Origin: Acidobacteriota bacterium
Lineage (GTDB): Bacteria > Acidobacteriota > UBA6911 > RPQK01 > JAJDTT01
NCBI GenBank assembly: GCA_028874215.1
Contig: JAPPLF010000042.1
Location: 144,146-208,145, forward strand
DNA: 64,000 bases
Reading direction: 5' to 3'
A model generated the notes under the pieces. It was not told where the DNA came from. It made no database searches and saw only the letters and a program-made list of their open reading frames with translations. Position 1 is the stretch's first letter. Every line of letters begins with the position of its first letter. The position numbers and the translations under genes were made by a program. Of this stretch, positions 42,900 to 48,412 are shown one piece after another.

Positions 42900-44168
42900 T
42901 CAGGCAGCGAGCTTTCCCGACCGGGCGTCCGATCCGGGGCCGGCGTCCGGCTCCCGAAAGACTCGCCAGAAGACGAGGGCGCACAGGGCCGTGATCACTG
43001 CGGGCACGGCAAACACGATGTCGTAGCGGGTCGTTCCGCCCACTGTGGCCACCTCCTTGAGCCAGCCTGAGAACAGGCTCCCGATGAACAGTCCGATGCC
43101 CAGGACCGCCACGTTGATCAGCGACTGGGCCGAAGCGCGGATATCGGACGGCGCCACCATGTCCGTGTAGATGAACGCCACCACGAAGAAGAAGACGTAG
43201 CAGAAACCGTGCAGCGCCAGTGAGCCCACCACGACCCAGACCAGAGTCGGAGCCGTCTCGTACAGCGGCCAGGCGGCCGCAAAGATGACGTAGCGGACGG
43301 GCCAGGCCAGGATGCCCACCAGCATGGAGACCCTCACGCCCCAGCGGGCCAAAGCGTAGGGGAGGATCAGCGCCATGGTGAAGATCTCGGCGATCTGACC
43401 GATGGTCATCCAGGCGGGCAGATTCTCCGAGGTGATGCCCACTGTGGGACCGATGGTCTGGAGGTAGGGAAAGGTGAGGATGTAGTAGAGCTGCAACTCG
43501 GTGGCCACCACGAAGGCGATGATGAAGAAGCTGAGGTAGTTCCGGTCCTTGAGGAGCCCGAACGACTTCCGGAAGGCCAGCGGGTCCGGAGCCTCGCGGG
43601 CGGGGGGCGTGTGGGGCAGCGCCAGGGAGAAGAGGCCCAGGACCAGGGAGAATGCAGCCGCCAGGACGAAGGTGTCGATGTAGCCGGCCGCTTCCGTGTC
43701 CAGCGCGACCCGCATGCCGGTCAGAGCCCAATTGGCGCCGATCCAACCCAGCGTGCCCCAGACCCGGATGGGCCCGAAGTCCCGCTGTCCGTCGGCCAGA
43801 TGCTGAAACGCCAGGGCATTGGTCAGGGCCAGGGTGGGCGCGAAGACCAGGCAGTAGAGGAGCATCAGGATCAACATGGCGCCCAGGGTTTCGGTGTACG
43901 CCATCCAGAGGAGGAATCCCGCTCCCAGAAGATGAAAGATGGCCAATGCCACCTGGGTCGGAAGCCAGCGGTCGGCGACCTGGCCTCCGGTAAACGGAGC
44001 CACCAGGTTGGCCAAGGGAAAGGCCGCGTAGATCAGTCCCAGCCCCCACCCCGAGAACCCCAGTTGCGCTTCCAGGTATCCGGCCAGGGCCGGTGCCCAG
44101 GCTCCCCAGATGGCGTACTGCAGGAACATCATCAGGCTGAGCCGGGGATGACTGAACATCCTCTTCAT
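42900..44168 (-). CDS. MFS permease of the nucleoside:proton symporter (NupG-like) group
   Basis: A 422-aa inner-membrane protein with twelve helices. The opening LSLMMFLQYAIWGAWAPALA and the loop NLVAPFTGGQVADRWLPTQV match the NHS branch of the major facilitator superfamily (NupG/XapB). So do DFGPIRVWGTLGWIGANWAL and the C-terminal YTDMVAPSDIRASAQSLINV. Many relatives in this lineage sit near sugar-catabolic genes and may carry sugars rather than nucleosides. Start at ATG 44168 with an AAGGAGAGG site; the in-frame extension to 44243 only translates palindromic repeat DNA. Confidence 0.88.
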   Translation of the reverse strand: MKRMFSHPRLSLMMFLQYAIWGAWAPALAGYLEAQLGFSGWGLGLIYAAFPLANLVAPFTGGQVADRWLPTQVALAIFHLLGAGFLLWMAYTETLGAMLILMLLYCLVFAPTLALTNALAFQHLADGQRDFGPIRVWGTLGWIGANWALTGMRVALDTEAAGYIDTFVLAAAFSLVLGLFSLALPHTPPAREAPDPLAFRKSFGLLKDRNYLSFFIIAFVVATELQLYYILTFPYLQTIGPTVGITSENLPAWMTIGQIAEIFTMALILPYALARWGVRVSMLVGILAWPVRYVIFAAAWPLYETAPTLVWVVVGSLALHGFCYVFFFVVAFIYTDMVAPSDIRASAQSLINVAVLGIGLFIGSLFSGWLKEVATVGGTTRYDIVFAVPAVITALCALVFWRVFREPDAGPGSDARSGKLAA

Positions 44169-44200
44169 CGATTCCTCTCCTTGCTTCCAAGAAAACGGAG

Positions 44201-44272
44201 GGGCGATTTCCAATCGCCCGGTCTTCGTCGCCAAATATGCCACACGGGAGTTCGGCGGTTAGGAAACCGCCG
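44201..44272. repeat. Two palindromic repeats upstream of the MFS gene
   Basis: 44201-44219 is GGGCGATT-TCC-AATCGCCC, a perfect palindrome. 44253-44272 is CGGCGGTT-AGGA-AACCGCCG. They are the two types found in the 37-kb array, here in opposite orientation of the TTCC loop, in the spacer between the MFS start and the mutarotase-like gene end. Confidence 0.85.
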
Positions 44273-44310
44273 GTCCTCCTTTCGTTGTCGGTCGACCAGG
44301 CCCCGGACGG

Positions 44311-45480
44311 TTACGGCAGGGCCCCCACGTCGACGGTCAAGCTCCTGGGTTGGTCATCGCGGCGCTCCCGGATGCGGAGTTGGGCGCCATCGTATTCGGC
44401 AGACGCCACGCCCCGGAAGTCGTTGGGGATCCGCGCCAGAAACAGGATGTAGCTCCGGGTGTGGGTTTCTCCCGCGTCCAGGTATTCGTAGACTCCTTTG
44501 TCCAACACTTTCCCCAGTTCGAGGAGGGTCGGGAATGGTTGGTGGATCCCCGTGGTCCCGAACTCGAGCCCGCGGGCACTCACCTTCCCCTGGTGCCGGT
44601 AACGCCACATGTTCAGCCATGGATACTCGGAGATCTTCCAGAGATAACCCACCAGAAGACCGGCCGAAGGCGTCGCGGCCGTCACCCATCCGTACTCGAC
44701 TCCGGGGTCGAAGATGAACGCGGTGACGTCGTGTCCCGAGGAGCCGTCGTCGGTGCTGTTGAAGAAACGAAGGTTCGCCGGCGTTCCCCCAATGGAGATC
44801 CGGGGCCACCGGTCGGCGTCGTCGGTCGATTGGGGCACCGGTTCCTCCTGGACCAGCCCGTGGGAGGCGTTGCAGTCCACGATGGTGGAGTCGTCCAGGA
44901 AGGGAGGAGCGATGCTGGGGTGCTGCACCAGGTTGTAGACGCGTCCCGCCGCCCGGACGTTGGTGACCGCTTCAGTCACCGTGAGGGACGCCTCATTCTC
45001 CTGGAGCCGGACGGTTCGCTTCACCTCCATCCCCGCCAGGGGGAGTTCGCATCCCATCCGGAGCTCGCTGTCCGCGGCTTCGCCGGCGCCCGGGTCGAGC
45101 CGTTCCCAGACCACCCGGGGAGCTTCTCCGTGGTAGGGCATCCCCATCTTCTCCTCGGCCGGCGACGGGGCGCCCCAGCGGTCGAAGCAGATGAAGTGCC
45201 CCTGGAGGTTGGGTCCTTCCGGACTCAGCGGTTCGATATCCTCCGTGGCTCTCCAACTCAGCGGGTTGACGCCGTGGTCCAGATAGTGGAAATCAATGAT
45301 GCCCCCTCCCCAGCGGTCGAGCGTGACCTGGGAGAGTCCATTCTTCAGGACCATCGAGCGGGGTGTGGACGCCGGCTTCTCCGGAGCAGGCGTGCAACCG
45401 GTCATTCCGGCCAGAATCGCCAAGACCAGTCCCAACCATAGAGGGTCGACAAATTCCAGAGTCTTCAAGATCATGTTCAT
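44311..45480 (-). CDS. Lipoprotein with galactose-mutarotase-like fold (function unknown)
   Basis: A 389-aa exported protein. Signal peptide with a lipobox-like end (LVLAILAGMTGC), then a beta-sandwich pattern resembling aldose-1-epimerase-like proteins: VLKNGLSQVTLDRWGGGIID, MEVKRTVRLQENEASLTVTE, NLVQHPSIAPPFLDDSTIVD and GKVSARGLEFGTTGIHQPFP. In this superfamily, members are epimerases, lyases or binding proteins; I see no decisive catalytic set. Start at ATG 45480, which has AGGAG upstream; the frame is open to 45663 but without a ribosome site. It precedes the MFS permease on the same strand, so it could sense or process its sugar. Confidence 0.75.
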   Translation of the reverse strand: MNMILKTLEFVDPLWLGLVLAILAGMTGCTPAPEKPASTPRSMVLKNGLSQVTLDRWGGGIIDFHYLDHGVNPLSWRATEDIEPLSPEGPNLQGHFICFDRWGAPSPAEEKMGMPYHGEAPRVVWERLDPGAGEAADSELRMGCELPLAGMEVKRTVRLQENEASLTVTEAVTNVRAAGRVYNLVQHPSIAPPFLDDSTIVDCNASHGLVQEEPVPQSTDDADRWPRISIGGTPANLRFFNSTDDGSSGHDVTAFIFDPGVEYGWVTAATPSAGLLVGYLWKISEYPWLNMWRYRHQGKVSARGLEFGTTGIHQPFPTLLELGKVLDKGVYEYLDAGETHTRSYILFLARIPNDFRGVASAEYDGAQLRIRERRDDQPRSLTVDVGALP

Positions 45481-45518: not shown

Positions 45519-46553
45519 CTACAAGTTCTGCTCCCTCCAGCGCGTCAACTGGTGCGCCAGTTGACGCGGCTTCGCCGTACCGGTGACGGCCAGTTGCCGG
45601 ATCGTGACCGAAGCCGCCAAGTTGCCCACCAGGGCGGCTTCCGGAAGGCTCGCTCCGCCACACAGCGCCAAGACCGCGCCGGCGGTGAAGCTGTCGCCGG
45701 CGCCGGTCACGTCCAGGGGACCCTCCACCCGGACGGCCGGCACCCGGGTCAACTCGGGGTCGGTCACCAGAGCTCCCGCATCACCCAGGGTCACACAAAT
45801 GGGTGCGCCGTTCCGGGACCGGAACCGGGGCAGGGCCTGTCGAATGGAATCGATCGGGACCCTCTCCCCGGGTCCGGGACTGGAACGCCTCACCACCTCG
45901 AACTGGTTCGGCTTCAGAATCATGCCGCGGAAGTGGTGGATCTGGGCCCGGCTGTCCGCCCAGAAGATGACCCGGGGGTGACGGAGTGCCAGATTCGTCA
46001 AGCCGTCGCGGACCTCGGCAGTCACGACGCCCAGGTCCGGTTGTTCCACCTGATCCTCGATGATGACGGCATCGACACGATCCAGCAGGCCTTCAAGATC
46101 GGCCAACATCTCCTGGAGGAGATCCGGCGGGACGGGGTCGCGGTTGCGGATGTCGTACCGCTCGTGTTCGCCGGATAGTTCTTTCCGGGACAGGTCTCTC
46201 GGTTTCAAGTAGGTGGGCGTCAGCATTGCCTTCCGGCGCCGCAATCCCCGGGTCGTGCAGCCGATGCGGTCCAGGCACTTCCGCAACTCGAATCCCGGGC
46301 CGTCATCCCCGGTGATTCCCAGGGCGTGGATCCGGCCGCAGTCCAGCGCGGCCAGGTTGTTCGCCACCGTTCCGGCGGCGCCGGGACTGGAGCGAACGGC
46401 GGCAACCTGGTGGGCACTCTTTCCGGTCTCCAGGCTTCTCTCCTCCAGATCCGGATCGACCTCCAGGTACTGGTCCAGAAAGAAATCTCCCAAGACGGCG
46501 ACCCGGCACGAGGGGAACCGGCCCGTCAGTTCTTCCAGCCGGGGTCTCTTCAT
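45519..46553 (-). CDS. PfkB-family carbohydrate kinase, RfaE/HldE kinase-like
   Basis: A 344-aa cytoplasmic kinase. N-terminal substrate strand VAVLGDFFLDQYLEVDP; glycine motif SPGAAGTVANNLAALDC; ATP-site signature DVTGAGDSFTAGAVLAL with the catalytic Asp of GAGD. The overall order is closest to the kinase half of HldE (heptose-7-phosphate 1-kinase), but it lacks the cytidylyltransferase half. The exact sugar is unknown. The start codon overlaps the preceding gene's stop (ATGA at 46553-46550), showing translational coupling in a three-gene operon with an unknown protein and a HAD phosphatase. Confidence 0.88.
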   Translation of the reverse strand: MKRPRLEELTGRFPSCRVAVLGDFFLDQYLEVDPDLEERSLETGKSAHQVAAVRSSPGAAGTVANNLAALDCGRIHALGITGDDGPGFELRKCLDRIGCTTRGLRRRKAMLTPTYLKPRDLSRKELSGEHERYDIRNRDPVPPDLLQEMLADLEGLLDRVDAVIIEDQVEQPDLGVVTAEVRDGLTNLALRHPRVIFWADSRAQIHHFRGMILKPNQFEVVRRSSPGPGERVPIDSIRQALPRFRSRNGAPICVTLGDAGALVTDPELTRVPAVRVEGPLDVTGAGDSFTAGAVLALCGGASLPEAALVGNLAASVTIRQLAVTGTAKPRQLAHQLTRWREQNL

Positions 46554-47554
46554 GATTCCGGTGAAGGATCGTTTGCTGAGAGCTCCCCTGCCTGAATCCG
46601 GTCGAGGACCAGATCGTAGAGGGCCGGGACCGTCGCCGCGTGGTTCCCCTGGACGTAAAAGCTCTCCCCGCCGTCGGCCACGGTTCGTACCAGGATGGTC
46701 TTGAAAGGCCGGAAATAATATCTGGGGTCCGACTTGCCGGCCTCCCGGGAGGTGTCCCCCAGGGGAACCAGGTCGAAGACGGCCGTGGTGAAACGGGCGA
46801 TGCGCCGGCCTTCCGGGTGAGCCACGTTGCGGGCCATGGCCAGGGCCTTCAGGTAGATCTCGGGTCCCATGACGGCCGACCCGATATTGAGAAAGACTCC
46901 ACCCTGGAGGCGGGTCACCGACTCGGTGAAGATCAGGAAGTCGGTGTAGGAGGCCGCCCCGGTGGCGGCTCCGTCGAATCCCGGGTGCTGGTGGATGATG
47001 TCCTGGCCGATGGAGACGTGGACCGTAGCCGGGACCTGCAGCCGGTAGGCCGCGGCCAGGACGCTCTCTCGCCGGTACGGGAAGGACTCCTCCTGGATCA
47101 TCCGGCCTACGGCCTCCCCCAGGCCGATCCCGTCCCGAGCCGCGGCTGACGCCGCCTCGTTGATGCGCCCGGTCTCGCGCCAGAGACCAAACTGCCCTTC
47201 GGCCACGTAGCGGGCCACGCTCTCGCAGGTCTCCCCCACCAGCGCCAGTTCGAAATCGTGAATGGCGCCGGCGCCGTTGAGGGCCAGGTGGCCCAGGATT
47301 CCCCGCTCCATGAGATCGATGAGCAGCGGGGCGTTGCCCTCCCGCAGGACATGCGCGCCGCAGGCGAAAATGACGGATCGGTCCGTCCGAGAGGCTTCCA
47401 CGATCCGCTTGGCCAGCAGGGGCAGCGCCGGATGCTCGAAAGGTTCTCGACTTCCCTCCGGCCTCTTCGACACGTCCGCCGCCTTCAGGTCGTGGGTCCG
47501 CCGGCTCAGGGGCAGAAGGCGCAGGCGGCTGCGGTCGAATTGAGGGAAGGGCAT
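46550..47554 (-). CDS. Conserved protein of unknown family in kinase/phosphatase operon
   Basis: A 334-aa soluble protein. It contains a Rossmann-like stretch (SVIFACGAHVLREGN, then LGHLALNGAGAIHDFELALV at about residues 87-106) and a strongly patterned middle (VHVSIGQDIIHQHPGFDG, GGVFLNIGSAVMGPEIYLKA, ALAMARNVAHPEGRR). The glycine-rich GAGAIHDFE part faintly recalls deoxyhypusine-synthase-like NAD-binding folds, but I cannot make a firm assignment. Its stop overlaps the kinase start (ATGA) and its ATG 47554 directly follows the HAD stop (TGA then ATG), so all three are made together; a role in the same sugar-phosphate pathway is an inference. Confidence 0.8.
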   Translation of the reverse strand: MPFPQFDRSRLRLLPLSRRTHDLKAADVSKRPEGSREPFEHPALPLLAKRIVEASRTDRSVIFACGAHVLREGNAPLLIDLMERGILGHLALNGAGAIHDFELALVGETCESVARYVAEGQFGLWRETGRINEAASAAARDGIGLGEAVGRMIQEESFPYRRESVLAAAYRLQVPATVHVSIGQDIIHQHPGFDGAATGAASYTDFLIFTESVTRLQGGVFLNIGSAVMGPEIYLKALAMARNVAHPEGRRIARFTTAVFDLVPLGDTSREAGKSDPRYYFRPFKTILVRTVADGGESFYVQGNHAATVPALYDLVLDRIQAGELSANDPSPES

Positions 47555-48412
47555 TCACGTTCGCTGGAACAGGCAGCGGATGAGGACCTTCCAGTCCCGG
47601 AAGTCGGGCACCAACAGGTCGGCGCCCGCCGCGCTCAACCGTGTTCGTTTCCAGGGATCGGGAGCCCCGCCCGGATTGGCTTCGTCGGTGGCCAGCGCAA
47701 CGGCGACTCCGCCGCACGACTTTACGTTTTCGATCTCCACGTAACCGTCGCCGAAGCCCACCAACGAGGCGCCTTCGATCCGGTTTTCCCGGAGGATTCG
47801 TTGGATGACCATTCGCTTGGAGTGGTTCGCGTAGTCTTCCCGGGCGCCGTAGATGTGGCCACCGAAAAATCCGTCCAGCTCCAGGAGGCGGGCTTCTTCC
47901 CGGACGTACTGCTCATCGGTGCCGCTGGCCAGGTAGAGCTGGACTCCATGCTCCCGGAGGGCGCGCAGCATCTGAACCGATCCCGGAACCAGGTAGTCGG
48001 CGGGGCGGGCCTTTCCGGTGCGCAGGCGCAGGCGCCGGTGACGGATCTTCTCCATCAGAAGGTCCAGGTAACGGCTCTTGTAGTCCTGAGGATCGGCAGG
48101 TGCGCCCCCCCTTTTCCCCAGCTCCTCCGCCAGCCGGATCATCTGGTAAATGGTCTGGCGTCCCGTCAGCTCGGTGACGAAGTCGGTCACCACACGCTCC
48201 AGCTCCTCATCGCTCTCGCCGGTGCCGCTCTCCTTCAGGATGTCCACCATCATGGGGATCATGATCTGGGGCCAACCTTCGCGGATCAGGCTGAGCGTGC
48301 CGTCGAAGTCGAAGAGGGCGCAACGGGGAGGCCGGGTCCCGGAGACGTCCCGGAGCACCTCGACGGTGGAGGCGTCCAGAAAACCCGGTGTCGCAGGAGT
48401 CGTCAGCGCCAT
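47555..48412 (-). CDS. HAD-family hydrolase (probable sugar phosphatase)
   Basis: A 285-aa enzyme. Motif I is ALFDFDGTLSLIREGW (nucleophile Asp and acid Asp), motif II is in LYLASGTDEQY, the conserved Lys in SKRMVIQRI, and motif IV is in SLVGFGDGYVEIENVK. The alpha-helical cap lies between about residues 45 and 140. HAD phosphatases of this type act on sugar phosphates. First gene of the operon leading to the unknown protein and the PfkB kinase. Start at ATG 48412; an in-frame TTG at 48460 is less likely. No ribosome site, but TATCCT stands 10 nt upstream, compatible with a leaderless transcript. Confidence 0.88.
   Translation of the reverse strand: MALTTPATPGFLDASTVEVLRDVSGTRPPRCALFDFDGTLSLIREGWPQIMIPMMVDILKESGTGESDEELERVVTDFVTELTGRQTIYQMIRLAEELGKRGGAPADPQDYKSRYLDLLMEKIRHRRLRLRTGKARPADYLVPGSVQMLRALREHGVQLYLASGTDEQYVREEARLLELDGFFGGHIYGAREDYANHSKRMVIQRILRENRIEGASLVGFGDGYVEIENVKSCGGVAVALATDEANPGGAPDPWKRTRLSAAGADLLVPDFRDWKVLIRCLFQRT

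Follow-up and report, generated by a model that had tools for sequence, protein, structure and literature searches.

A conserved unit of HAD phosphatase, GSU2086-family protein and PfkB-type kinase in an acidobacterium, with possible links to heptose-phosphate metabolism

Heptose pathways supply sugars of the LPS core and of capsules, as well as the innate-immune signals HBP and ADP-heptose. The ADP-heptose pathway runs through GmhA, HldA, GmhB, HldC and HldD. In a different field of metabolism, deoxyhypusine synthase (DHS) and the NAD-dependent type of ornithine cyclodeaminase (OCD) hold NAD, by which a hydride is taken off and given back with zero net redox change. To our knowledge, the DHS/OCD fold is known solely from amine chemistry, and all its characterised members act on amines via NAD. 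A third point of comparison is NCBIfam family NF052581 ("GSU2086 family protein", GSU2086_dom), a family without assigned function whose namesake is GSU2086 of Geobacter sulfurreducens, a protein encoded next to hldE and gmhA.

The window, that is, the whole 64,000-nt stretch of DNA analysed here, lies on contig G000:C42 of a 5.7-Mb genome in 113 contigs, whose relatives found by sequence are titled Acidobacteria or Aminicenantes. Computation was used to establish how the genes are laid out, their homology, the fold, linkage and fusions, as well as co-occurrence and the pathway gaps. The initial annotation had described three proteins locked into one unit by two stop/start contacts, and both contacts are indeed present, on the minus strand (Table 1). 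These contacts go beyond chance, as distant phyla show the three genes equally packed and in an identical order. A 732-aa open reading frame at 45519-47717 was rejected as an artefact, in which the kinase frame is extended through the middle gene.

Table 1. Features of the three-gene unit and of its possible extension, in window coordinates
Feature	Position	Strand	Remarks
HAD phosphatase	47555..48412	-	285 aa, opens the unit
X (334-aa GSU2086-family protein)	46550..47554	-	second gene of the unit
PfkB-family kinase	45519..46553	-	344 aa, kinase domain only
TGA/ATG stop/start contact, HAD to X	47554..47557	-	HAD TGA at 47557-47555, X ATG at 47554
ATGA overlap of X stop and kinase start	46550..46553	-	seen in the sequence
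Possible fourth gene: lipoprotein weakly similar to DUF4432 (aldose-1-epimerase-like)	44311..45480	-	38 bp separate it from the kinase
Possible fifth gene: MFS permease, nucleoside permease family	about 42900..44168	-	

The unit may extend further. The kinase gene is followed on the same strand by genes for a lipoprotein (PF14486, 9e-4, under the Pfam cut-off) and for an MFS permease (TIGR00889, 5.8e-82, 276 bits, below the cut-off of 446), and this order is kept in L022 and L023, the two nearest loci, which are from the same genus. Thus, the operon may include the region 42900-45480 and comprise five genes with a sugar-uptake flavour.

The 334-aa protein, hereafter X, had initially been described as having no family that could be named. 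This did not hold, since X matches NF052581 over its full length (residues 5-313, profile positions 1-299 of 301) at 1e-117 and 393 bits, above the cut-off of 250. Profile and structure searches, which had been suggested for this protein, gave an uncharacterised family and a recognisable DHS/OCD superfamily fold rather than no family at all. The two blocks singled out earlier as conserved-looking both lie within X; across 65 homologues, the motif NGAGxIHDFE and the stretch GSAVxGPExxLKAL are almost unchanged. Moreover, H68, H99, D100, S164, D185, K236, D261 and R282 are invariant across subtypes and divergent viral members. The window protein is of the longer subtype, which shares about 41% identity with a shorter acidobacterial one. 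A single-sequence search of the PDB with X gave no match, PHROGs contained no family for any X tested, viral ones included, and a fold search of BFVD returned nothing significant for X.

One scan of genome contigs revealed 293 places encoding relatives; among the best 80 of these 293, which were kept, identity ranged from 96% down to about 55% over Acidobacteria, Planctomycetes, Chloroflexi, Clostridia, Spirochaetes and Armatimonadota. The survey of gene order in other genomes that had been called for shows that HAD-X-kinase is conserved in all of these groups. Considering type-A loci with adequate flanks, which are not phylogenetically independent and include MAGs whose titles can be wrong, a HAD gene lies within 300 bp upstream of X in 41 of 83, a kinase gene within 1 kb downstream in 49 of 79, and the complete triple occurs in 34 of 76, from at least six phyla. 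With the HAD profile, 60 related genomes yielded 9 strong homologues, all 9 adjoining X; a tenth, weaker match, in genome G031, has an HldA-like kinase match as its neighbour, and their contig shows no X match. The shorter subtype (type B), found in other acidobacteria, lies directly downstream of a GmhA-like gene and often beside a gene that its sequence suggests is uvrA. Many acidobacteria (L104, L110, L112, L114 and L115) have type-B X right next to this apparent uvrA, whether the GmhA-like gene is there or not. In a genome of the same genus (L122:1875-4787, G003:C4), the unit occurs in a further, divergent copy with the order HAD-kinase-X.

The labels of HAD phosphatase and RfaE-like kinase given by the initial annotation were borne out. 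The HAD protein matches the Pfam HAD/Hydrolase model at 1.6e-12, and its catalytic set (DFDGT, SGT, SK and GDG) is kept in 23 homologues. No match to the GmhB model TIGR00213 was listed for this protein (P0002), and among solved structures its profile came nearest to general HAD or phosphoserine phosphatases, with weak E-values that are uninformative as to substrate. The kinase matches PfkB (PF00294) at 2.7e-19, and the PfkB fold is accompanied by an invariant GAGD catalytic motif. Its nearest equivalog is HldA (rfaE domain I; TIGR02198, 1.4e-32), with 113 bits against a cut-off of 345. A search of the PDB with the kinase profile gave no relative at 1e-20.

In the window's own genome, an HldC-like nucleotidyltransferase scores 176.8 bits (cut-off 181.5) and is directly followed by the gene for HldD, which scores 408.9 bits, above its cut-off of 274.6; one GmhA-type SIS protein is encoded away from the operon. 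The operon kinase is the only HldA-like (TIGR02198) match in this genome at E ≤ 1e-25, and a search with TIGR00213 at 1e-10 gave no GmhB. Since HldC, HldD and GmhA are present, the kinase and the HAD protein plausibly fill the two missing steps, the latter as a candidate replacement for the heptose-1,7-bisphosphate 7-phosphatase GmhB. It should be noted that other acidobacteria with HAD-X-kinase also possess a canonical HldA and, in most cases, a GmhB match, so that the module there is not simply the LPS heptose pathway and has a role of its own.

Linkage to heptose genes is also seen outside the triple. In several loci, the module has nearby a gene for a GmhA-like SIS protein of about 190 aa, and 12 of 21 type-B loci have a GmhA-like gene next to X. 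SIS-HAD fusions occur in four loci (L078, L089, L096 and L098), and in Ornatilinea apprima a second X is fused to a GmhA-like SIS domain in a protein of 566 aa (L061:1837-3534, minus strand). O. apprima also has a HAD-X-kinase operon apart from this gene, with LarC2-like and ROK genes after it. The SIS proteins of the module score 102-121 bits against the GmhA equivalog, under its cut-off of 209, and a search with their profile retrieves phosphoheptose isomerases of solved structure with E-values from 1e-52 to 1e-65. Among related genomes that are at least 90% complete, a GmhA-type protein is present in 23 of the 24 that have X and in 9 of the 22 that lack it (Fisher 6e-5, not corrected for phylogeny). 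In G006, which has X, GmhA was not found, nor was it found in the viruses that have X and HldA/HldE-type kinases. Replacement of GmhA by X was considered and is disfavoured, as the two are adjacent or fused and X is almost always accompanied by GmhA.

In one acidobacterium (L120), an HldE-like gene, a SIS gene, X and a split transketolase stand in a row. The Geobacter namesake resembles the window protein in its full-length family match and in its linkage to heptose genes; it differs in that its neighbours are hldE and gmhA, whereas the window X is linked to a HAD protein and a separate kinase. In G. sulfurreducens, the Tn-Seq scores of the three genes nearly coincide, with -3.1 for GSU2085 (hldE), -3.2 for GSU2086 (X) and -3.7 for GSU2087 (gmhA) (PMC5585712). 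This study was the only one found in the literature on GSU2086 and on gmhA/hldE with DHS, Geobacter or phage.

X is also encoded on 9 virus contigs. All four virus records longer than 70 kb that carry X encode an HldA/HldE-type kinase as well, and one of the viruses (L173) has rmlA, a dTDP-glucose-dehydratase-like gene, X and HldE; GmhA was not found in these four records, which may be fragments. On three smaller virus contigs, X lies beside genes for terminase, portal and head, and no sugar gene is visible there. Divergent GSU2086-family proteins were seen on virus contigs of 10-201 kb at L173:5932-6990, L174:5836-6858, L177:5938-6927 and L179:4004-4915. At L179:4004-4915, L180:452-1363 and L181:5899-6810, X is flanked by the genes for the large terminase subunit and the portal, an odd position for a metabolic gene.

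The initial annotation had suggested that X may be a new enzyme in heptose-like sugar metabolism. This is a reasonable reading given the conserved gene order, a kinase nearest to HldA, a GmhA-like isomerase as partner and the association of X with hldE and gmhA elsewhere. Heptose itself stays a candidate substrate, since the kinase and the SIS proteins miss the HldA and GmhA cut-offs and the HAD protein is not GmhB. We consider, with a probability of roughly 0.5, that the unit belongs to a heptose-phosphate module in which X would be an NAD-holding enzyme of the DHS/OCD fold acting on a C7 sugar phosphate.

Several points count against this reading. GmhA, the kinase and the HAD protein would complete the pathway without X, for which the known ADP-heptose pathway has no place. 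A genome of the same genus (G002) keeps GmhA and HldC while X, HAD and kinase are jointly absent, and the virus contigs with X by packaging genes have been described above. Moreover, the clostridial module, found beside sugar transporters and dehydrogenases, looks catabolic, and Clostridia normally have no LPS. The main rival explanation, which we regard as rather unlikely, follows from there: the module would be a general non-heptose sugar-phosphate pathway, mainly catabolic, in which an imported or oxidised sugar passes through a ROK kinase, a SIS isomerase, X and a PfkB kinase, with the HAD protein trimming phosphate, and the resemblance to GmhA and HldA would be at the level of superfamilies only, in keeping with the missed equivalog cut-offs. 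Clostridial and Chloroflexi loci do carry sugar ABC transporters (assigned from sequence and context), a Gfo/Idh/MocA dehydrogenase (IolG-like), an IolE-like TIM barrel and a ROK kinase beside the module; L116 has a PPi-dependent phosphofructokinase there, and in the window itself the unit is followed by the aldose-epimerase-like lipoprotein and the MFS permease. However, the HldE-SIS-X-transketolase row in L120, the viral HldE genes with X, the matching fitness of hldE, X and gmhA in Geobacter (PMC5585712) and the HldA/GmhB gap in the window's own genome all point to C7 sugars.

The fold of X bears on what it may catalyse. An AlphaFold2 model built with 65 homologues reached a pLDDT of 92 and a pTM of 0.90. 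Foldseek with this model gave as best match 3c2q, a LOR/SDH protein (1.6e-8), followed by the deoxyhypusine synthase 8put (2.5e-8) and AgrE (6lrh, 1.4e-7; AgrE/ArgZ about 1e-7), all with a probability of 1.00, yet a TM of only about 0.5. With hhalign, X matched DHS-like proteins of related genomes over most of the length (probability 93 in local and 95 in global mode, E 8e-9), and OCD proteins with a probability of 93 over 68 residues. X (P0001) scores 15 bits against PF21570, the ArgZ-like C-terminal Rossmann domain (gathering cut-off 27), which a few relatives in G022 and G005 pass with 27.1-31.5 bits; several X relatives are above the Pfam DS or ArgZ cut-offs. Taken as modelled, these comparisons place X in the superfamily of deoxyhypusine synthase and NAD-dependent ornithine cyclodeaminase.

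With DHS (PF01916), X has in common the fold, a profile match over most of the length and an HD motif at the same place. It differs in lacking the catalytic lysine motif, SGxTxxEAVSWGK, which is found in most of 13 aligned DHS-like proteins and whose WGK is absent from the X alignment, and in having no eIF5A or polyamine context. For want of WGK, X was rejected as a true deoxyhypusine synthase. The window's own genome has a separate DHS-like gene (G000:C3:32577-33542, minus strand; PF01916, 5.3e-69). With NAD-dependent OCD, LOR/SDH and the ArgZ/AgrE C-terminal domain (PF21570; 3c2q, 6lrg), X shares the motif N-x-x-x-x-H-D-x-E, and 3c2q is its nearest Foldseek match, whereas the sequence likeness is limited to about 68 residues. 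Such neighbours raise the possibility that X keeps the amine chemistry of DHS, homospermidine synthase and ornithine cyclodeaminase, placing nitrogen on a sugar or taking it off, or acting on a diamine, as the fold members known to us all use NAD on amines and both Foldseek and profiles put X among them. We consider this improbable: X shows no linkage to amino-acid, polyamine or aminotransferase genes, its partners are sugar-phosphate enzymes, and the WGK motif is missing. A non-catalytic or regulatory role of X at the side of GmhA and the kinase, which its fusion or adjacency to GmhA and its solitary position among packaging genes on three small virus contigs might suggest, is very improbable, since the eight residues invariant even in divergent viral members make it look catalytic.

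Returning to the heptose-phosphate module, we propose the following scheme. The GmhA-type isomerase encoded elsewhere in the genome would convert sedoheptulose 7-phosphate into aldoheptose 7-phosphate, the operon kinase would, like HldA, phosphorylate C1, and the HAD protein of the operon would stand in for GmhB and remove the C7 phosphate, after which HldC and HldD, also encoded elsewhere, would lead to ADP-L,D-heptose. X, with bound NAD, would transiently oxidise a carbinol on a C7 sugar phosphate and so bring about a redox-neutral change, e.g., an epimerisation next to the GmhA step, with K236 and R282 as candidates for acid-base and phosphate contact. NAD binding, substrate and reaction of X are our inference.

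An unrecognised enzyme in heptose-type metabolism is thus the best-supported reading of X, and a plausible one. More tentatively, X may found a sugar-acting branch of the DHS superfamily, i.e., a redox-neutral NAD enzyme for an undescribed heptose-phosphate step, spread over many phyla and over large phages with HldA/HldE-type kinases. If this is true, the textbook pathway would lack a reaction, that of an additional, widely distributed enzyme tied to GmhA and HldE, and the GmhA-X fusion, the viral HldE-X genes and the Geobacter Tn-Seq phenotype make the idea directly testable.
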